From Cyanobium sp. M30B3 (GTDB lineage: Bacteria > Cyanobacteriota > Cyanobacteriia > PCC-6307 > Cyanobiaceae): DNA of 64,000 bases. The stretch is from NCBI GenBank assembly GCA_018399015.1, contig CP073761.1, forward strand, positions 930,001 to 994,000. The letters run 5' to 3'. This document shows, piece by piece, positions 40,003 to 56,223 of this stretch. A program made the position numbers and the translations under genes. Within the stretch, counting starts at the first letter, position 1; every line of letters begins with the position of its first letter. A model generated the notes under the pieces. That model saw only the letters and a program-made list of their open reading frames with translations. It searched no databases and was not told where the DNA came from.

Positions 40003-41391
40003 TCAGTCGAGATCGGGCATGGCCAGGGTGGGCTCGGCCTGACGGTCGATGCCCTTCTCAAATCCGGCGGCGGCAGCGCGGGCCCGGCCGGCGTGCCAGA
40101 GGTGGCCCACCAGGAAGAAGAAGGCCAGCACGAACTGGGTCGCGGCCAGCCACTGGCGGATGTTCACGAAGTTCACCGAGTTGGGCTCGGTGATGATGCC
40201 GCCCACCGAATTCAGGGAGGCGTTGGGGGCGTGGGTCATGTATTCAGCCGCGCGGCGCACTTGCCAGGGCTGAATGTCGTTCTGGAGCTTGTCGAGGCTC
40301 AGGCCATTGGGGCCGCGCAGCGGCTCCAGCCAGGGGCCACGGAAGTCCCAGAAGCGCATGGTTTCACCGCCGAAGATGATCTCACCGGTGGGGGAGCGCA
40401 TAAGGTACTTGCCCAGGCCGGTGGGGCCCATGGCCGAACCGATGTTGGCGCCGAGACGCTGGTCGCGCACCAGGAAGGTGAAGCTCTGGGCCTGGGAGGA
40501 TTCGGCGTTGGTGGGGCCGTAGAACTCCGAGGGATAGGCGGTGTTGTTGAACCAGATGTAGGCCGAGGCGATGAAGCTCATCAGGCTGAGCGCACCCAGG
40601 CTGTAGCTGAGATAGGCCTCACCGTTCCAGATGAAGGCGCGGCGCACCCAGCCGAAGGGCTTGGTGATCACGTGCCAGATGCCACCGAAGATGCAGATCA
40701 GGCCCACCCAGATGTGACCACCGATGATGTCCTCCATGGAGTTCACACCGATGATCCAGCCCTCGCCGCCGAACGGGGCCCGGCCCAGATAGCCGAAGAT
40801 CACGCCCGGATTCAGGGTTGGATTGGTGATCAGGCGCACATCGCCGCCACCGGGAGCCCAGGTGTCGTAAACGCCGCCAAAGAACATGGCCTTGAACACC
40901 AGCAGCAGGGCGCCAACGCCGAGGAGAATCAGGTGATACCCAATGATGTTGGTCATCTGATTCTTGTCGCGCCAGTCCTGGGAGAAGAACGAGGAGTAGT
41001 TCTCCAGGATCTCGGGGCCGCGCAGGGCGTGATACAGACCGCCCAGGCCGAGCACGGCCGAGCTGATCAGGTGCAGCACACCCACCACAAAGAACGGATA
41101 GAGGTTCACCACCTCACCGCCGGGACCCACGCCGTAGCCCAGGGTGGCCACGTGGGGCATGCAGATCAGGCCCTGCTCGTACATGGGCTTGTCGAAGGTG
41201 AAGTGGCTCACCTCGAACAGCATCATGGCGCCGGCCCAGAACACCATCAGACCGGCGTGGGCGACGTGGGCGCCGAGCAGGCGACCGGAGAGGTTGATCA
41301 GGCGGGCGTTACCGGCCCACCAGGCGTAACCGGTGGAGTCGAGGTCCTTGCCCCCGACACTCACCAGCCCGGAATTAAAGGGCGTTTCCAC
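40003..41391 (-). CDS. psbC: Photosystem II CP43 chlorophyll-binding protein
   Basis: A 462-aa inner antenna protein of photosystem II with six membrane helices. Recognisable stretches are [60 protein letters not shown] and the large lumenal loop with [23 protein letters not shown] at 41391 ([20 protein letters not shown]) is used, overlapping psbD by 17 bp, the conserved cyanobacterial arrangement. The in-frame extension upstream lies in psbD and is not translated. Confidence 0.97.
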
Positions 41392-42430
41392 GGGGCAGTA
41401 CCTCTTCAGGGAAGACGAAGTTTTCGTGCGGCTGGTCAGCCGGTGCCATCCAGGCACGCAGACCTTCATTCAGAAGGATGTTCTTGGTGTAGAAGGTCTC
41501 GAACTCGGGGTCCTCAGCGGCGCGGATCTCCTGCGACACGAAGTCGTAGGCGCGCAGGTTGAGGGCCAGACCGATGATGCCGATGCTGCTGGTCCACAGA
41601 CCCATCACCGGCACGAACAGCATGAAGAAGTGCAGCCAGCGCTTGTTGGAGAAGGCGATCCCGAAGATCTGGCTCCAGAAGCGGTTGGCGGTGACCATCG
41701 AATAGGTCTCTTCTTCCTGGGTGGGCTCGAACGCCTTGAAGGTGTTCGACTGCTCGCCGTCCTCAAACAGGGTGTTCTCCACCGTGGCGCCGTGGATGGC
41801 GCAGAGCAGGGCACCGCCCAGGATCCCGGCCACGCCCATCATGTGGAAGGGGTTGAGGGTCCAGTTGTGGAAGCCCTGCAGGAACAGCAGGAAGCGGAAG
41901 ATGGCGGCCACGCCGAAGCTGGGGGCAAAGAACCAGCTGCTCTGGCCCAGCGGGTACATCAGGAAGACACTGACGAACACCGCGATCGGGCCGGAGAAGG
42001 CGATGGCGTTGTAAGGGCGGATGCCCACCAGGCGAGCGATCTCGAACTGACGCAGCATGAAGCCGATCAGGGCGAAGGCGCCGTGCAGGGCCACGAAGGG
42101 CCAGAGGCCGCCCAGCTGGACCCAGCGCACGAAGTCGCCCTGGGCCTCGGGGCCCCAGAGCAGCAGCAGGCTGTGGCCCATGGCGTCAGCGGGGGTGCTG
42201 ACGGCGGCGGTGAGGAAATTGCAGCCCTCCAGGTAGGAGCTGGCAATGCCGTGGGTGTACCAGGAGGTGGCGAAGGTGGTGCCGGTGAGCCAGCCGCCCA
42301 GCGCCAGATAGGCGGTGGGGAACAGCAGCAGACCGGACCAGCCGACAAAAACGAAGCGGTCGCGCTTGAGCCAGTCGTCGAGGACGTCGAACCATCCCCG
42401 CTGGGGCAAGCGCCCTGCAGCGATCGTCAT
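41375..42430 (-). CDS. psbD: Photosystem II D2 reaction-centre protein
   Basis: A 351-aa protein, the usual D2 length. It binds P680, pheophytin, plastoquinone QA and non-haem iron. Stretches are [80 protein letters not shown] and [16 protein letters not shown] at the end. The pair psbD-psbC is transcribed from the region at 42431-42615. Many cyanobacteria have a second psbD copy; only this one is in the window. Confidence 0.97.
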
Positions 42431-47885: not shown

Positions 47886-48101
47886 ATGTCGGTTGCCCAG
47901 ATCAAGAACCTGCAGCGTCGCCTGGCCAATCTGGAGAGTGAGGCCTGCGATGAGCTCAATCGGGCCTGTGGCCACGAGCTCTGGCAGACCCTGGGCTTTG
48001 ATGCCCTCGACAGCCTGGAGGACCCGGACCGCAGGGCCCGGGCCAACTACTACTACGGGCAGCTGCAGACGGTGCGTGAGTTGCGCGATGGCCTGGGCTG
48101 A
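47886..48101 (+). CDS. Small conserved hypothetical protein
   Basis: A 71-aa soluble helical protein: MSVAQIKNLQRRLANLESEA then ANYYYGQLQTVRELRDGLG. GGAGTG lies 9 bases before ATG 47886, favouring it over ATG 47856. I recognise no domain. The heptad-like N-terminus suggests a short coiled coil. It is convergent with the pseudouridine synthase gene. Confidence 0.6.
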   Translation: MSVAQIKNLQRRLANLESEACDELNRACGHELWQTLGFDALDSLEDPDRRARANYYYGQLQTVRELRDGLG

Positions 48102-48116
48102 GGGGGCCAGGCCTCC

Positions 48117-48791
48117 TTACCCGCCGCCGCTGCCCTGGCCCGATTTTCCACCACCGGCCCGGCCGCCCCGGCCGGGTGAGCTCCGGCCTGGGAAGCGGCT
48201 ACGCAGCAGTTGGCCCAGCCGCTCCTCCTCCCCGGCGTCTGCAGGGCGCCAATGGCCGGGTTTCAGCCCGCTGAGGTCGAGGGGCGGCAGGCCGTCCATC
48301 AGATCGATCGCCATGCGGATCAGCCGCAGGGTGGGGTAGCCCACGGCAGCGGTCATGCGTCGCACCTGGCGGTTGCGCCCCTCCCGCAGGTCCAGTTCCA
48401 GCCAGCTGGTGGGCACCTGCAGCCGGTGGCGGATGGGCGGCTGGCGCTCCGGCAGGCAGGCGGCTACCCGCTCTGGGTCCGGCAGAGCCCTGGCCCGCGC
48501 CGGGAGGCTGGGCTTCCCCTGCACCATCACCCCCGATCGCAACTGCTGGAGGGCTCTGCTGGCGTTTGGGCTGTCAGCGCCCAGATCGCCCTCCACCTGC
48601 ACCCAGTAGCGTCGCCAGTGCCCGAAGGCCGGATCGGTGAGGCGCTGCTGCAGGCGGCCCTGGTCGGTGAGCAGCAGCAGGCCCTCGCTGTCGGCGTCGA
48701 GTCGGCCCGCGGCGTACACCCCAGGGCGGTCGATGAACGCGGCCAGGCAGCCCCAGCGGCTGCCCGCTTCCGGGGTGAACTGGCTCAGCAC
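48117..48791 (-). CDS. Pseudouridine synthase (RluE/RsuA family)
   Basis: At least 224 aa. The catalytic motif AAGRLDADSEGLLLLTDQG contains the Asp; YWVQVEGDLGADSPNAS, LREGRNRQVRRMTAAVGYPT and LRLIRMAIDLMDGLPPLDLS follow, with a Gly/Arg-rich tail. It modifies a uridine in rRNA. The conserved LLFHKPYG motif lies in frame just upstream of the GTG used here (48791), so translation probably begins earlier, near 48824, at a non-standard codon (CTG); no ATG, GTG or TTG is available before an in-frame stop. Confidence 0.85.
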   Translation of the reverse strand: MLSQFTPEAGSRWGCLAAFIDRPGVYAAGRLDADSEGLLLLTDQGRLQQRLTDPAFGHWRRYWVQVEGDLGADSPNASRALQQLRSGVMVQGKPSLPARARALPDPERVAACLPERQPPIRHRLQVPTSWLELDLREGRNRQVRRMTAAVGYPTLRLIRMAIDLMDGLPPLDLSGLKPGHWRPADAGEEERLGQLLRSRFPGRSSPGRGGRAGGGKSGQGSGGG

Positions 48792-48837
48792 CCCGTAGGG
48801 CTTGTGGAACAGAAGGGTGGTCAGAGGCGGATGCCGG

Positions 48838-48924
48838 TCAGGACTGGCGTGCCTTCCAGAGGTTCACCACGCCGATCGAGATCAGCAGCAGGCCGAGGTC
48901 GATCGACAGGGGAGGCAGCACCAT
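48838..48924 (-). CDS. Putative 28-aa single-helix membrane peptide
   Basis: The minus-strand frame reads MVLPPLSIDLGLLLISIGVV then NLWKARQS: one membrane helix with a short basic C-terminus. It lies just upstream of, and on the same strand as, the pseudouridine synthase gene. Size and layout resemble small photosynthetic or respiratory complex subunits, but I recognise no family and see no Shine-Dalgarno. It is supported only by its composition and by the lack of any other gene here. Confidence 0.4.
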   Translation of the reverse strand: MVLPPLSIDLGLLLISIGVVNLWKARQS

Positions 48925-49041
48925 CAGTTGCCGGTCAAGGAGATCAGACCCTATCGCCACTGCGGCAGCAGCGTTGCCCGGGCGGGGGCAGGGCGACGCT
49001 TAAACTGGATTCAATCTCTGAACCGGTTTGCGCACCCCTGC

Positions 49042-49311
49042 ATGATTGAGACCTCTGGTGTGATCGAAAAGGAACAGGGCAACGGGTTCTACCTGGTGAC
49101 CCTTGAGCAGCCTGCCGGTCACCAGTGCCTCTGCCGTGCGGCCGGCAAGCTCACCAAGTTCCGCATCAAGCTGCTGGCTGGCGACAAGGTGCTGGTGGAG
49201 ATCAGCCCTTACGACCTCACCCGCGGCCGCATCACCTACCGGGAGCGCAACGTCGGAGCGTCCGGTCCCCGCCCCGGCGGCAACCGCCCGGGCGGCCCAA
49301 GACGGCGCTGA
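49042..49311 (+). CDS. infA: Translation initiation factor IF-1
   Basis: An 89-aa OB-fold protein: MIETSGVIEKEQGNGFYLVT, CRAAGKLTKFRIKLLAGDKV, LVEISPYDLTRGRITYRERN. The C-terminal Gly/Pro/Arg-rich extension (SGPRPGGNRPGGPRRR) is longer than in E. coli IF-1 (72 aa). Cyanobacteria often have a second, more canonical infA with the ribosomal protein operon, so this divergent form may be a paralogue with a special role. Confidence 0.82.
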   Translation: MIETSGVIEKEQGNGFYLVTLEQPAGHQCLCRAAGKLTKFRIKLLAGDKVLVEISPYDLTRGRITYRERNVGASGPRPGGNRPGGPRRR

Positions 49312-49368
49312 GACCCCTGTCCAGGTCCACAGGCTCACGCACGTCCAGTGCCGAGGCCGTCACCTCCA

Positions 49369-49388
49369 GCCCGGGACTCATCCCGGGC
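49369..49388. terminator. Perfect hairpin between convergent infA and ntrC
   Basis: GCCCGGG-ACTCAT-CCCGGGC forms a 7-bp all-GC stem in the 92-bp gap between the convergent infA and NTRC genes. No T-run follows on either strand, so it may stall polymerase or protect both 3' ends rather than act as a classical intrinsic terminator. Confidence 0.5.
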
Positions 49389-49403
49389 ATCGCGAAAGGG
49401 CAC

Positions 49404-50798
49404 TCAGGCGTGCACGCCCAGCAGGCCCTCGATGGCGGCCTTGAATTCGCTGCGCTGCTTCACGCCCTTGAACTGCTGCTTCAGTTCCTTCTGGAAGAAC
49501 AGCTGCACGGTGGGGGTGCCGCTGACGCCGGCCTGCTGGGCGATCGCCTGATCGGCTTCGATGTCGATCTCCACGCCCTGGGCGGCGCCCCCGAGCTCAT
49601 CGAGCACCCGCTTGAGCTGGGGCTTGAGCACGTGGCAGGGGCCGCACGTGGGTGAGGTGTACACCACCAGCAGGGGCCTGGGGCTGTCGTGATAGAGCTT
49701 GCGCAGGGCATAGCTGCCCTTCTGCCAGAGGGCAGCGGCGTCGAAGTTGGCCGCGTCGCTCTCGGCGGTGCGCTTGGGCTCGCCCACCTCCTGGGGGTCC
49801 ACCTGCTCGCGCTTCACCTCCACCGCCAGGTTGTGGTGACTCAGCCAGCGCTCGGCCGCCAGGGCCGCCTGGCAGCCGCTGCCAGCGGCGGTGATGCCCT
49901 GGCGCCACTCGGCGTCGGCCACATCGCCGGCGGCGAACACGCCCTCGATGCTCGTTTCAGGCCGCCCCGGCTTGGTCACCAGGTAGCCGTGGCTGTCCAC
50001 CTCCAGCTGGCCGCGCAGCAGGCGGGTGTTGGGGGTGTGGCCGATGGCATAGAAGAGGCCCTTCACCGCCAGCTCCTCGGTGGCGGTGCTTTCGGTGTCG
50101 CGCAGGGTGATGGCCTCCAGCCAGTCGCTGCCGCTGCAATCGGCCACCTGGCGGTGCCAGTGCACGGTGATGTTGGGATTGGCCAGCACCCGGTCGGCCA
50201 TGGCCTTGCTGGCGCGCAGCTGGCCGGAGCGCACGATCAGGTGCACGTGGTCGCCGTACTTGGTGAGGTACACCGCCTCCTCGCAGGCGGAGTCGCCGCC
50301 CCCCACCACGGCCACCGCCTGGTTGCGGAACTGGGGGGTGGCGCCATCGCAGATGGCGCAGGCACTGATGCCGCTGCTCCAGAAGCGCTCCTCCTGGGGC
50401 AGGCCCAGCCGGTTGGCACTGGCGCCGGTGGCCAGGATCACGCTCTGGGCCTGGTAGGTGGTGCCGTCAGCGGTGATCCGGAAGGGCCGCTGCGACAGAT
50501 CGATCTCGGTGGCGTCGGCCAGCACCAGGGTGGTGCCCCAGCGCTCGGCCTGGGCCTTCATCCTGTCCATCAGGTCGGGCCCCAGGATGCCGTCGGGAAA
50601 GCCCGGGAAGTTCTCCACGTGGGTGGTGGTCATCAGCTGCCCGCCCGGGATGCCGCCGTCCTGGAAGCCCGTGATCAGCAGTGGATTGAGGTTGGCGCGG
50701 GCGGCGTAGATGGCGGCGGTATAGCCGGCGGGGCCCGAGCCCACGATCACGAGATTTTCAATGGCTGGACGCTCAGAAACCGGACGCTCTGCAACCAC
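49404..50798 (-). CDS. ntrC: NADPH-dependent thioredoxin reductase C (NTRC)
   Basis: A 464-aa fusion. The N-terminal FAD/NADPH thioredoxin reductase has [20 protein letters not shown], the redox pair [19 protein letters not shown], and [20 protein letters not shown]. The C-terminal thioredoxin domain (about 350-464) has [18 protein letters not shown] with the CGPC site. It reduces 2-Cys peroxiredoxin and links NADPH to redox control. Note that this ntrC is unrelated to the nitrogen regulator. The start is GTG 50798. Two CTTAAG boxes lie just upstream. Confidence 0.95.
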
Positions 50799-50800
50799 AG

Positions 50801-50826
50801 CTTAAGCGGATCAACTATGACTTAAG
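50801..50826. promoter_or_regulatory. Two CTTAAG boxes 20 bp apart before NTRC
   Basis: The palindrome CTTAAG occurs at 50801-50806 and 50821-50826, exactly 20 bp centre to centre (about two helical turns), within 30 bp of the NTRC start. The extended sequence GCTTAAG/CTTAAGGC makes an imperfect inverted repeat. AT-rich six-mers are uncommon in this GC-rich window, so a dimeric or tetrameric regulator could bind here. No regulator can be named. Confidence 0.35.
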
Positions 50827-50854
50827 GCTAGGTGATCGTTGGGCCGGGCGTCGC

Positions 50855-51118
50855 TCAGATCTCCAGCAGCCCGTCGGTTTCTGGATTGGACCCGTGGAGG
50901 CGGCCCGAACCTGGCTGCTGGTCGGCAAGATTGCGGGGCACCATCAGCACACTGGGCTCCAGCAGGTGGGGGTGATCCTCCAGGCAGACCAGCCATTCGC
51001 GGAATTCCTCTGTGAGGGCGTAGCTCTCCTCGTAGTGCTCAAGCGCGTCGAGGGTGGCCCTGCGGGCCAGGGCCCAGCTCACGGCAACGGTCAGTCTGCG
51101 ATTCACTGCAGCATCCAT
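50855..51118 (-). CDS. Small conserved hypothetical protein
   Basis: An 87-aa soluble protein: MDAAVNRRLTVAVSWALARR, LDALEHYEESYALTEEFREW and EPSVLMVPRNLADQQPGSGR. No domain recognised; I believe similar small proteins occur in marine Synechococcus. The ATG at 51118 is preferred over the longer frame starting at 51187, which reaches into the AT-rich spacer. Confidence 0.55.
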   Translation of the reverse strand: MDAAVNRRLTVAVSWALARRATLDALEHYEESYALTEEFREWLVCLEDHPHLLEPSVLMVPRNLADQQPGSGRLHGSNPETDGLLEI

Positions 51119-51367
51119 GACCCGCGCCCCCGTTGGTGGCACCACGCTGGCTGGGCGCGCCGGAATCTGGGGTATTGGTTGACACAACGTCGCAAACTAT
51201 CGGCACTCGTTTGCGTATTTCAGTCATTCTGCGCAGGGCCGCTGTTCGCAAATGCCCGAATTGCCGCATGATTGCTGGTCTCACGCTGCAGACCAGTTTT
51301 TGTAGCGTATCCGACAACTATATCCTAGCGTTTATTGTAGCAAAGTGATGTTCAGGGTTCTCTGGAG
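51119..51367. other. AT-rich intergenic spacer, possible small RNA locus
   Basis: A 249-bp gap between two minus-strand genes. The part from about 51175 to 51365 is clearly richer in A and T than anything nearby. It contains a strong plus-strand intrinsic terminator (51275-51301), yet no plus-strand gene lies upstream. TTGACA occurs at 51179-51184 on the plus strand without a convincing -10. A small plus-strand RNA ending at about 51301 is the best guess. Confidence 0.4.
51275..51301 (+). terminator. Orphan plus-strand Rho-independent terminator
   Basis: CTGGTCT-CACGCTGC-AGACCAG (7-bp perfect stem) is followed immediately by five T (51297-51301). It is functional only for plus-strand transcription, but both neighbouring genes are on the minus strand. 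It is therefore evidence for an unannotated plus-strand transcript. Confidence 0.75.
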
Positions 51368-52939
51368 TCAGGCCGGTTCTGGCCGCCGCTGGCCTGATCG
51401 GCCGCCTGATCGGCCAAGGAAGTCGGGCAATTCCGGCCCCCGCACCCGCAGCAGCGAGCCGGCCCGCTCGTCGATCGCCTGCAGGGCATGCTGCCCCGGC
51501 GCCCCAGGGCCGATCCCCACGGCAGTGGCGCCGGCCTGCCGGCTGCTCAGCAGGTAGGGCTCACTCAGGGACCAGCCGCGGGCATAGCTGATCAGCAGGG
51601 GGTCGGCCGGGGCATACACGTAGGACGCCAGCCTCGGGACGGGTTCCTCGCTGGCCCGTTCCCCGTCCATCCGCACCGCCCGGGTGATCGCCTGCACAAA
51701 GCGGCTGCGCGTCACCACGGTGGTGAGGTAGGCCACCACCCGCACCCGCGGTGCGTCGAAGCCTTCGGCGCACATGTCGATGCTCACCAACCAGTCGGCC
51801 TGCCCGGCGCGGAAGGCGGCCAGCCGCTCCGCTGCCCCAGGATCCTGGGAGTGCACCAGATGCACGTCGTCCCCCTGCTCCCGCAGCAGGGCGCTGATCT
51901 GTTCGGCGTGGGCGATGTCGCGGGCGATCACCAGGCCGCCGGCCCCGGGATGCTGCTGCTCCCGCAGCCGCTCCAGCCGACGCCGGGCCTCCAGCAGCAG
52001 GCGCAGGGCGATGCTGCTGCCGTCGCCGAGCCGGATGGCCCGCCTCAGGTTGCGGGCCCGCCAGCTCTCGCGGCTCTCCGCCGAGAGGGGGGAGGTCTCG
52101 CTGTCGCCGCAGCCGTCGCCGTCGGCGCCGGGGCGGCCGTGGTCCACCCAGCCGTCCTGGAAGCGGAATTCCAGGGGGCGAACATCGCCGACGCTGATCA
52201 GTTGCCGCGGCTCCACGCACAGGTCCGGCACGATCCGCTCCAGGATCTCATCCCCCTGGCGCAACCGCTCCCGCCGCGCCGCGCAGAATGCCAGGTTGTC
52301 AGCCCGGAACGGCGTGCCCGTGAGGCCGAGGCGCAGGGCGGCCGAGGCAGTGAGGCAGCTGAAGGCATGGCCCCAGACGGCGGCCTCGGGTTCATCCGGA
52401 TCCAGGCCCAGATGGTGCACCTCATCGGCGATCGCCAGCCAGCTGCCCGGGCTGCCGCCGGGCCCATGCCGCTCCAGCAGCCGTCGGTGGCGGGCGGCGG
52501 CCTGGTAGCTCAGCACCAGCCCATCCCAGCCTGGATCGCCCGCCTCCGGCGCCCCTGGGGTGGTCGGCCACGTGCTGCCGGTGCGGGTGCCATCCCAGTC
52601 GCGCAGCCGCAGTCCCAGCCGGGCTGCCGCCTGGTGCCACTGCAGGCCGATCGAGGTGCGGTGGCAGAACACCACGAAGCGTTGCAGCCTGCCTTCCCGT
52701 TGCAGCTGGCGAAAGCCGAGCAGGGCGCCCAGTGTCTTGCCCGCCCCTGGGCCAGCGTGGATGAGCACGTCCTGGCCGCCCCGTCGCTCCTGCACCAGGC
52801 GCGCCCGCAGCAGCTGGATCAGCTGGCGTTGCCACTGGCGGGGCCGCACGTCCTGCGGCGGTTCCCCAGGGCCGGCAGCCCGGGGCAGCCCCCTGAGCGC
52901 AAAGGAGAGAGAGGCGGACGGGCGATCCATGGCGGCCAT
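51368..52939 (-). CDS. DEAD/DEAH-box superfamily 2 helicase
   Basis: A 523-aa helicase: Walker A VLIHAGPGAGKTLGALLGFR near residue 50, motif Ia VVFCHRTSIGLQWHQAAARL, motif II WLAIADEVHHLGLDP (DEVH), motif III LGLTGTPFRADNLAF, motif V SIDMCAEGFDAPRVRVVAYL and motif VI RFVQAITRAVRM. It resembles the restriction-helicase-like branch of SF2 (ResIII), without a nuclease or methylase domain. A longer frame up to 53371 is rejected because it has no family resemblance. No partner gene for a defence system is evident. Confidence 0.85.
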   Translation of the reverse strand: MAAMDRPSASLSFALRGLPRAAGPGEPPQDVRPRQWQRQLIQLLRARLVQERRGGQDVLIHAGPGAGKTLGALLGFRQLQREGRLQRFVVFCHRTSIGLQWHQAAARLGLRLRDWDGTRTGSTWPTTPGAPEAGDPGWDGLVLSYQAAARHRRLLERHGPGGSPGSWLAIADEVHHLGLDPDEPEAAVWGHAFSCLTASAALRLGLTGTPFRADNLAFCAARRERLRQGDEILERIVPDLCVEPRQLISVGDVRPLEFRFQDGWVDHGRPGADGDGCGDSETSPLSAESRESWRARNLRRAIRLGDGSSIALRLLLEARRRLERLREQQHPGAGGLVIARDIAHAEQISALLREQGDDVHLVHSQDPGAAERLAAFRAGQADWLVSIDMCAEGFDAPRVRVVAYLTTVVTRSRFVQAITRAVRMDGERASEEPVPRLASYVYAPADPLLISYARGWSLSEPYLLSSRQAGATAVGIGPGAPGQHALQAIDERAGSLLRVRGPELPDFLGRSGGRSGQRRPEPA

Positions 52940-53044
52940 TGTGGGCTGAGGTCCCCGCCAGGGACCCTGCAGATGAGTGATCTGGCCTATGGGCGGCGGA
53001 TCAGGCCTGCCTAGCTTCAGGCCAGATCCCATGCCCCTGCTCGC

Positions 53045-53248
53045 ATGGCCCATCGCGACGATGTGCGCTTGCGCCCAGGTGACGGCCACGGGCTGGATCC
53101 TGTCGCGGGGGCGCGCCGGCATCTCAGCCGCTGCTGGCGGCGGGAGTGTGACATCGACCCGCTGATCCTGCGGGCGCGACAGCTGCGCCGGCGAGGGGCC
53201 AGGGGGCTGGCGCGCTGCCTGGAGCAGGAGTTGCTGCCGCTGTTCTGA
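53045..53248 (+). CDS. Small Arg-rich hypothetical protein
   Basis: A 67-aa basic protein whose second half, DIDPLILRARQLRRRGARGL then ARCLEQELLPLF, looks like a conserved cyanobacterial motif. The N-terminal half is weakly convincing. It is divergent from the helicase gene and precedes pntA on the same strand. Confidence 0.45.
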   Translation: MAHRDDVRLRPGDGHGLDPVAGARRHLSRCWRRECDIDPLILRARQLRRRGARGLARCLEQELLPLF

Positions 53249-53345
53249 CCAGGCCGGGCCATCCATTTGTGGCTCCATGCCCACAAATGGACCGAAAAGG
53301 TTGCCGGCGCAGGCAGCTCGGCCTCCAAATGGTCTGAGTACGACT

Positions 53346-54527
53346 GTGCGGCCGTTGACCCAGTTGCTCATCCCCAGGGAGTGTCGTCCGGGTGAAACCC
53401 GGGTTGCGGCCAGTCCTGAAACCGTGCAGCGCTTCTGCGCCCGCGGTCTGCTGGTGCGGGTCGAGGCCGGGGCCGGGGCCTCGGCGGGCTTCTCCGATCA
53501 GGCCTACGCCGAGGCGGGCGCCGAGCTGCTCCCAGCCGGCCACACCGCCTGGCCTGAAACGGATGTGGTGCTGTGCGTGCACCCACCGCAAGACGAGCAG
53601 CTGGGGCAACTTCAGAACGGGGCCCTGTTGCTCGGTCTGCTGGCGCCCTACGGCGCCCATTCCCTGGCAGAGCGGCTCAACAGCCGGCGGGTGTCTGCCC
53701 TGGCCCTGGAACTGCTGCCCCGGATCAGCCGGGCCCAGTCCATGGATGTGCTGTCGTCCCAGGCCAACATCGCCGGCTACAAGGCGGTGCTGCTGGCCGC
53801 CGCGGCCCTCAATCGCTATGTGCCGATGCTGATGACCGCCGCCGGCACGATTCAGCCGGCCCGGGCCCTGATCCTGGGGGCCGGGGTGGCCGGACTGCAG
53901 GCGGTGGCCACGGCCCGGCGGCTGGGGGCGGTGGTGATGGTGAGTGATGTGCGCCCGGCGGCCCGCGAGCAGGTGGAATCCCTGGGTGGCCGCTTCCTCG
54001 CGCCTCCGGAGCAGGTGCCGGCCCCGGCCGAACAGGGGGGCTATGCCCAGGCCGCCAGCGAGGCCTTCCTGGAGGCCCAGCGCCAGCAGCTCTGTGAACA
54101 GCTGGCCCTGGCCGACATGGTGATCTGCACCGCCCAGGTGCCTGGCCGGCAGGCCCCGCGGCTGATCAGTGAGGCGATGCTCGACCACCTGCGCCCCGGC
54201 TCGGTGGTGGTGGATCTGGCGGTGGCCCAGGGGGGCAACTGTGCGGGAACCCTGCCCGGCCAGACGGTGGAGCGCCAGGGCGTGATCCTGATCGGCGCCG
54301 ATGCCCTGCCCTGCAGCGTGGCCCAGCACGCCAGCGCCCTCTACGCCCGCAATCTGGCGGCCCTGCTGGAGCACCTGCTGGCTACCCCTGCGGCCACGGA
54401 GGGTGGGATCGGACTGGACCGGGAGGATCCGATCGTGCAGGGCTGCCTGTTCACCCACGCCGGCGACTGCCTGCGCCCCGACGTGCTGGGTGAGGGCAGC
54501 GCGCGCCAGCTGGAGGTGGTGGCATGA
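53346..54527 (+). CDS. pntA: Proton-translocating NAD(P) transhydrogenase subunit alpha (PntAA)
   Basis: The NAD(H)-binding soluble domain (dI), about 390 aa: LLIPRECRPGETRVAASPET, ISRAQSMDVLSSQANIAGYK, LMTAAGTIQPARALILGAGV and AGLQAVATARRLGAVVMVSD, MLDHLRPGSVVVDLAVAQGG. It works with the two downstream proteins to couple NADH-to-NADP+ hydride transfer to proton flow in a membrane. The start is uncertain: GTG 53346, TTG 53355 or ATG 53277. The stop overlaps the next gene (ATGA). Confidence 0.93.
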   Translation: MRPLTQLLIPRECRPGETRVAASPETVQRFCARGLLVRVEAGAGASAGFSDQAYAEAGAELLPAGHTAWPETDVVLCVHPPQDEQLGQLQNGALLLGLLAPYGAHSLAERLNSRRVSALALELLPRISRAQSMDVLSSQANIAGYKAVLLAAAALNRYVPMLMTAAGTIQPARALILGAGVAGLQAVATARRLGAVVMVSDVRPAAREQVESLGGRFLAPPEQVPAPAEQGGYAQAASEAFLEAQRQQLCEQLALADMVICTAQVPGRQAPRLISEAMLDHLRPGSVVVDLAVAQGGNCAGTLPGQTVERQGVILIGADALPCSVAQHASALYARNLAALLEHLLATPAATEGGIGLDREDPIVQGCLFTHAGDCLRPDVLGEGSARQLEVVA

Positions 54528-54814
54528 GCTCCTTGAATCAGGCCCTCTGGGTGCTGTTGCTGGGCAGCCTGCTGGGGCTGGAACTGATCGGCAAGGTGCC
54601 CCCCACCCTGCACACGCCGCTGATGAGCGGTGCCAATGCCATCAGTGGCATCACCATGCTCGCCTCGCTCACCCTGATCTCCCGGGCCGACGGCAATCCG
54701 GCCCTGCTGTTGCTGGGGGCGGCCTCCCTGGCCTTCGCCCTGTTCAACGTGGTGGGTGGCTTCGTGGTCACCGACCGGATGCTGGCCATGTTCTCGCGCA
54801 AGAGGAAGGGCTGA
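54524..54814 (+). CDS. NAD(P) transhydrogenase alpha subunit, membrane part (PntAB)
   Basis: A 96-aa protein with three membrane helices (LWVLLLGSLLGLELIGKVPP, LMSGANAISGITMLASLTLI, ALLLLGAASLAFALFNVVGG). It supplies part of the proton channel domain (dII), as in split cyanobacterial transhydrogenases. It overlaps pntA by 4 bp and pntB by 1 bp (TGATG). Confidence 0.95.
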   Translation: MSSLNQALWVLLLGSLLGLELIGKVPPTLHTPLMSGANAISGITMLASLTLISRADGNPALLLLGAASLAFALFNVVGGFVVTDRMLAMFSRKRKG

Positions 54815-56223
54815 TGCCGGTTCTCGCAACGGCCCTCGGCTGGGCCATTGATCTGCTGGCGGTGTTGCTGCTGGCCCTGGGCCTCAAGGGGCTCTCCAAG
54901 GTGCGTTCGGCCCGCTCCGCCAACGGTCTGGCGGCCCTGGCCCTGGGCCTGGCCGTGATCGGCCTGTTGATCCAGTCGCCGCTCACCCCCATGGGCTGGC
55001 TGTGGATCGCCGTGGGCACCGCCATCGGTGGTCTGGCTGGCCTGCTCACCGCCCGCCGGGTGCCGATGACGGCGATGCCGGAGACGGTGGCCCTGTTCAA
55101 CGGCTGCGGCGGCATGGCCTCGCTGCTGGTGGCCCTGGGTGTGGCCCTGTTCCAGAGCTCCGGCGCCGGCCTGGTGGCGCTGATCTCGATCGTGATCTCC
55201 GTGGTGGTGGGGGCCATCACCTTCAGCGGCTCGCTGGTGGCGATGGGCAAGCTGCAGGGCTGGATCGGTACCCCGGGCTGGACCCAGAGCCAGGTGCGCC
55301 ATGGCCTGAACATCGCCCTGGCGGTGGCCACCCTGGTGGGGGCCTTTGCCCTGCCGGCCGACCCGACTGGTGCTCCGCTGGGGCTGCTGGTGGTGGCCGC
55401 CGCCCTGCTCGGGGTGGGGGTGACCCTGCCGATCGGCGGCGCCGACATGCCGGTGGTGATCTCGCTGCTGAACAGCTACTCGGGTGTGGCGGCGGCGGCG
55501 GCCGGTTTCGTGGTGGGCAGCCCGCTGCTGATCGTGGCGGGCGCCATGGTGGGTGCGGCCGGCCTGATCCTCACCCAGGTGATGTGCAAGGCCATGAACC
55601 GCTCGCTGCTCAACGTGCTCTTCGGCGGTGCCCTGGGCGCATCGGCAGGCGGCCATGTGGGCGGCGGCGGCGATGAGGCCGGCTACACCCGCATCACCAG
55701 CTGCAGTGCCGAGGAGTGCGCCCTGGCCCTGGAGGGGGCCGAGCGGGTGGTGTTCGTGCCGGGCTATGGCCTGGCGGTGGCCCAGGCCCAGCACGCCCTG
55801 CGCGAGCTGGCCAAGCTGCTGGAGGCCAAGGGGGCGGAGGTGAGCTATGCCATCCACCCGGTGGCCGGCCGCATGCCGGGCCACATGAACGTGCTGCTGG
55901 CCGAGGCCGACGTGCCCTACGAGCAGCTGGCCGAGATGGATGCCATCAATCCCGAATTCCCGCGCACCGACGTGGTGATCGTGCTCGGGGCCAACGACGT
56001 GGTGAATCCGGACGCCAAGAACGATCCCGCCAGCCCCCTCTACGGCATGCCCGTGCTGGAGGTGGACCGCTCCCGCCAGGTGTTCGTGGTGAAGCGCAGC
56101 CTGGGGGCCGGCTATGCCGGCATCCGCAACGCCCTGTTCGAGCTGCCCCAGACGGCCATGGTGTTCGGCGATGCCAAGGCGGTGCTGCAGTCGCTGGTGA
56201 GCGAGTTGCGCAGCGCTGCATGA
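54814..56223 (+). CDS. pntB: NAD(P) transhydrogenase subunit beta
   Basis: A 469-aa protein. The N-terminal half has about nine membrane helices (VALFNGCGGMASLLVALGVA, ISIVISVVVGAITFSGSLVA, VVISLLNSYSGVAAAAAGFV). The C-terminal NADP(H)-binding domain has VVFVPGYGLAVAQAQHALRE, YAIHPVAGRMPGHMNVLLAE, VVIVLGANDVVNPDAKNDPA and VFVVKRSLGAGYAGIRNALF. It is the last gene of the pnt operon. With nadK and NTRC it controls the NADPH pool. Confidence 0.96.
   Translation: MPVLATALGWAIDLLAVLLLALGLKGLSKVRSARSANGLAALALGLAVIGLLIQSPLTPMGWLWIAVGTAIGGLAGLLTARRVPMTAMPETVALFNGCGGMASLLVALGVALFQSSGAGLVALISIVISVVVGAITFSGSLVAMGKLQGWIGTPGWTQSQVRHGLNIALAVATLVGAFALPADPTGAPLGLLVVAAALLGVGVTLPIGGADMPVVISLLNSYSGVAAAAAGFVVGSPLLIVAGAMVGAAGLILTQVMCKAMNRSLLNVLFGGALGASAGGHVGGGGDEAGYTRITSCSAEECALALEGAERVVFVPGYGLAVAQAQHALRELAKLLEAKGAEVSYAIHPVAGRMPGHMNVLLAEADVPYEQLAEMDAINPEFPRTDVVIVLGANDVVNPDAKNDPASPLYGMPVLEVDRSRQVFVVKRSLGAGYAGIRNALFELPQTAMVFGDAKAVLQSLVSELRSAA

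Follow-up and report, generated by a model that had tools for sequence, protein, structure and literature searches.

The window analysed here, 64,000 nt of the Cyanobium sp. M30B3 genome, contains a perfect hairpin with a five-T tail lying between two minus-strand genes, which encode an 87-aa protein and an SF2 helicase. A sequence-only reading recorded this arrangement, usable by plus-strand transcripts only, together with the AT-richness of its surroundings, and these observations hold. As to function, the same reading proposed that the hairpin belongs to an undescribed element beside the helicase gene, either a regulatory RNA or a small RNA of mobile or defence type. The locus comprises the following features.

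49404 to 50798, minus strand: thioredoxin reductase gene (trxB) with a C-terminal thioredoxin domain, a conserved syntenic neighbour (domains, synteny)
50855 to 51118, minus strand: gene for an uncharacterised, conserved 87-aa protein, downstream of the leader (alignment)
51119 to 51198, minus strand: leader of the 87-aa gene, conserved and in single copy, TTTGCGACGTTGTGTCAACC ... CAGCGTGGTGCCAC ... ATG (sequence comparison)
51197 to 51367, no strand: AT-rich spacer, genome-specific sequence (49.7% GC, comparison with relatives)
51275 to 51296, plus strand: terminator-candidate stem, inverted repeat CTGGTCT-CACGCTGC-AGACCAG (sequence, shuffles; absent from 43 orthologous gaps)
51297 to 51301, plus strand: TTTTT tract after the stem (sequence, shuffles)
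51313 to 51339, minus strand: possible promoter TTGCTA-15-TATAGT, weak and with non-optimal spacing (by eye; not returned by the consensus scan)
51368 to 53371, minus strand: SF2 helicase gene with ResIII and Helicase_C domains, a conserved syntenic neighbour (domains, synteny)

Anatomy and setting of the hairpin

Seven Watson–Crick pairs, four of them G-C, join CTGGTCT (51275–51281) to AGACCAG (51290–51296) around an 8-nt loop, CACGCTGC (51282–51289), and one extra G-T pair extends the stem at its base. The TTTTT tract follows directly on the plus strand, the next base being G. In the minus-strand direction, AATCATG follows the stem and there is no T-tract; hence, as a terminator, the structure could act on plus-strand RNA only. 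Intrinsic, Rho-independent terminators combine a GC-containing stem of at least 5–7 pairs and a short loop with a U-tract immediately 3′ on the same strand, and both elements are found here. The differences are that this hairpin is not downstream of any plus-strand gene and that its 8-nt loop is longer than that of most other strictly defined terminator-like sites in the genome, whose stem lengths are comparable.

The GC content of the 171-nt island around the hairpin is 49.7%, where the median is 68%, and 3.3% of windows of this length fall that low. The helicase stop codon and the ATG of the small ORF are 249–250 nt apart, compared with 79–263 nt (commonly about 94 nt) in relatives, in many of which the conserved leader lies only about 35 nt from the helicase stop. 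The island was also searched for repeats or target-site duplications indicating insertion, none of which was convincing.

Strict sites were defined as having at least seven Watson–Crick pairs with at least four T in five, or with five in five. In dinucleotide-shuffled copies of the island, a site of the first kind arises with P = 0.002 and one of the second with P = 0.00025. Across 464 kb of the genome, 21 strict sites were counted against a shuffled mean of 3.4, and this roughly six-fold enrichment means that most such sites are probably genuine terminators. Under loose criteria, the hairpin is the sole terminator-like site between 48000 and 55000, where 1.9 are expected by chance. Larger folds are no more stable than shuffles (z = −0.05 for 51180–51305 and −1.0 for 51240–51305). 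The low P values and the genome-wide enrichment make the hairpin with its TTTTT a credible intrinsic terminator, termination itself being predicted.

Distribution among relatives

The hairpin is present in none of 43 orthologous gaps, 12 congeners included. These gaps comprise 42 fetched loci carrying the 87-aa gene, drawn from named Cyanobium, Vulcanococcus, Synechococcus, and Prochlorococcus genomes (some of the same species as the congeners), plus the congener G002. When the 263-nt region was used as a DNA query, matches were returned in 11 of the 12 congeners and were confined to 51118–51196; the exception, G002, possesses the same leader at its locus. The spacer that holds the hairpin cannot be aligned among congeners, a DNA search with the island against 300 family genomes yielded only chance-level pieces of 15–35 nt, and the inverted repeat with its loop is single copy in this genome. 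Absence of stem conservation had been named beforehand, jointly with absence of plus-strand reads, as refuting a small RNA, and the stem is indeed not conserved. Among the compared sequences, the hairpin occurs in this one cyanobacterial species only, and it would have arisen in its lineage.

Homology of the hairpin to the spacers of loci L067, L068, and L070 was considered and set aside as too weak, the best z being 4.3 among 42. A gap-by-gap scan for T-tract hairpins on the antisense strand found three unrelated weak ones (L072, L085, and L095) with no pattern. That of L085, a sister-genus locus, is a different T-tract hairpin, TGCGATTTCGCACAACGTCGCA-CTTTTTGC, positioned at the start of the leader.

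The neighbouring genes

The order and strand of the helicase gene, the 87-aa gene, and trxB are kept in the congener matches and in nearly all of the 42 loci; the three form a vertically kept cluster. The helicase is core and syntenic in the genus and in sister genera, whose gaps are without the hairpin, and against defence families it gave weak partial PADLOC and NCBIfam matches, none of them strong. The proposal that the hairpin marks a mobile element or a defence RNA moving along with the helicase fails because the cluster is vertically kept: its synteny persists where the hairpin is missing, and the hairpin locus is single copy.

The 87-aa protein alignment has a mean column identity of 72%, and no match to the protein was found in Pfam, NCBIfam, or PADLOC. 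Its core is near-invariant (RRLTVAVSWALARxATLD...EESYALTEEFREWL), and in nearly all of the loci seen its gene is a neighbour of trxB.

A conserved minus-strand leader

The sequence-only reading had treated 51130–51365 as a candidate RNA. The plus-strand hairpin in that interval is real, whilst the conserved part is the minus-strand leader at 51119–51198, which had been missed. This leader, on the other strand, is a more interesting object than the hairpin. It contains two near-invariant blocks at fixed spacing, ACGTTGTGTCAACC and CAnCGTGGTGCC, the first of which has a single exact occurrence in each of 13 genomes of the genus, at this locus wherever coordinates were compared. Of 121 family genomes searched with a covariance model of the leader, 37 have a match, one apiece, and these represent 17 of 59 genera; this genome has in addition a second match that is marginal and partial. 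The 20 matches that were fetched all lie immediately ahead of the 87-aa gene.

Between the blocks lies a variable part, which in 21 sequences from sister genera folds on itself into a two-part hairpin. Covariation in these sister genera reaches 0.286; shuffles give 0.151 ± 0.023, and slid versions no more than 0.133. It is the sister genera that drive the mean MFE z of −1.4, calculated over 40 leaders. RNAalifold gave no consensus structure for the sister-genus alignments, in which the helix register slides, and for the own-clade alignment just a helix of 6 pairs, in which no two-sided changes occur. In a register-free test, each 5′ half was folded with its own 3′ half versus that of another sequence, a comparison that does not fix the strand and to which shared within-genome base composition could contribute. 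It gave 0/5000 for the sister genera, 4/5000 for 15 held-out genomes (a set found with the covariance model and hence not wholly unbiased), and 2140/5000 for eight own-clade rows. Counting in a fixed register detected no signal in the 15 held-out genomes and a weak or absent one in the own clade. These register-free and fixed-register results make a leader hairpin probable outside this genus; within the genus, where no covariation support was found, it is only putative.

One motif in one copy per genome, ahead of a conserved uncharacterised gene that adjoins the thioredoxin reductase gene, makes the leader a clear target for a possible new cis-regulatory RNA in picocyanobacteria.

Small-RNA features at the hairpin

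A scan of 48000–55000 restricted to sigma-70-like promoters found no plus-strand site. No Rfam family was detected at the hairpin region at gathering score, and with relaxed thresholds the best sub-threshold match, STnc450 (21.7 versus 37 bits), was uninformative. There is no conserved plus-strand ORF either: the ORF at 50894–51271, which ends 3 nt before the hairpin, was rejected after stops were counted in its frame over the 87-aa gene, where they break it in 22 of 42 relatives.

The Yfr1/Yfr10 motif is ACUCCUCACAC, unpaired. Its form ACTCCTCACAC is missing from the hairpin region and occurs exactly at two places only in this genome, 2288275 (plus strand) and 3002281 (minus strand), which are possible Yfr1 and Yfr10 copies. 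Yfr1 and Yfr10 are short intergenic RNAs of picocyanobacteria, as the candidate here would be, and the position and structure of Yfr10-type sRNAs are variable and poorly conserved (PMC6778093); the candidate differs from them in lacking the motif. The proposal of an undescribed small RNA gene thus finds no plus-strand promoter match, conservation, Rfam family, or Yfr1 motif to sustain it.

What the hairpin may do

The reading that we favour, with a probability of roughly 0.45, is that the hairpin is a species-specific plus-strand terminator that ends antisense transcripts of the leader region before the helicase gene. The RNA would begin on the strand opposite the 87-aa gene or its leader, at a predicted position of about 51120–51270; the hairpin and T-tract at 51275–51301 would act on it as an intrinsic terminator; and termination at about 51301 would stop RNA polymerase from running antisense into the helicase gene. 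The terminator would have arisen in the lineage of this species and be no part of a conserved RNA gene. In cyanobacteria, antisense and non-coding transcription is abundant and varies between close strains; in Synechocystis 6803, antisense RNAs or sRNAs account for about 64% of the transcription start sites (PMC5386190). The predicted RNA would, like cis-antisense RNAs and sRNAs of Synechocystis 6803 and 6714, be antisense to the 5′ region of a gene, for which the sigB 5′ UTR case offers a parallel (PMC5386190); the Synechocystis RNAs have been mapped, whereas the candidate here lacks a promoter match and is predicted from sequence. Points against the terminator are the missing sigma-70-like plus-strand promoter, the absence of the hairpin from every orthologous gap, which gives no sign of selection for it, the count of only 4/7 G-C pairs, and the 8-nt loop. 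If real, it would be an ordinary lineage-specific signal that stops antisense transcription.

A functionless inverted repeat that came to lie by a T-run, by chance or neutrally, in a fast-drifting AT-rich spacer is somewhat unlikely and yet a serious rival, because 64 kb were scanned for the observation, which leaves the local P of 0.002 less striking. The unalignable spacer, the 43 gaps without a hairpin, the 1 site against 1.9 expected under loose criteria, and the unremarkable stability of the larger fold all suit it; the six-fold enrichment of strict sites and the P of 0.00025 with TTTTT do not. The conserved leader allows another account, in which part of the interval belongs to an undescribed cis-regulatory RNA, the minus-strand leader of about 17 Synechococcus-like genera, and the new plus-strand terminator of this species delimits an RNA antisense to it. 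The element, present in one copy per genome and ahead of the 87-aa gene wherever examined, would fold in many of these genera into a hairpin with covarying halves and a sliding paired register. We consider this account improbable.

A dedicated lineage-specific plus-strand sRNA of about 50–180 nt, with its 3′ end at 51301 and acting in trans or antisense to the 87-aa leader, is also rather improbable. A hairpin with a T-tract is what the 3′ end of an sRNA looks like, cyanobacteria commonly have sRNAs and antisense RNAs that are specific to a strain (PMC5386190), and Yfr10-type sRNAs differ in position and structure (PMC6778093), but the absence of promoter, Rfam family, conservation, and Yfr motif reported above speaks against it. 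Least probable is that the inverted repeat acts in minus-strand RNA, as a stem-loop in an 87-aa 5′ UTR starting at about 51310, or as a protein-binding palindrome: the spacer does lie upstream of a minus-strand gene, with a TATAGT-like −10 element about 20 nt upstream of the stem, yet relatives manage without the repeat, many in just about 35 nt between helicase stop and leader, and the T-tract on the plus side is left unexplained. Since the hairpin is known from one species only, a local stop for stray antisense transcription is more likely than any new RNA with a regulatory, mobile, or defence role.

Elsewhere in the window

An Rfam match to IsrR (158 bits) lies at 40788–40974 on the plus strand, antisense to a minus-strand ORF at 40003–41469. 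By sequence, this ORF is psbC, overlapping psbD, and not isiA; the score may reflect coding similarity between isiA and psbC instead of a true IsrR.
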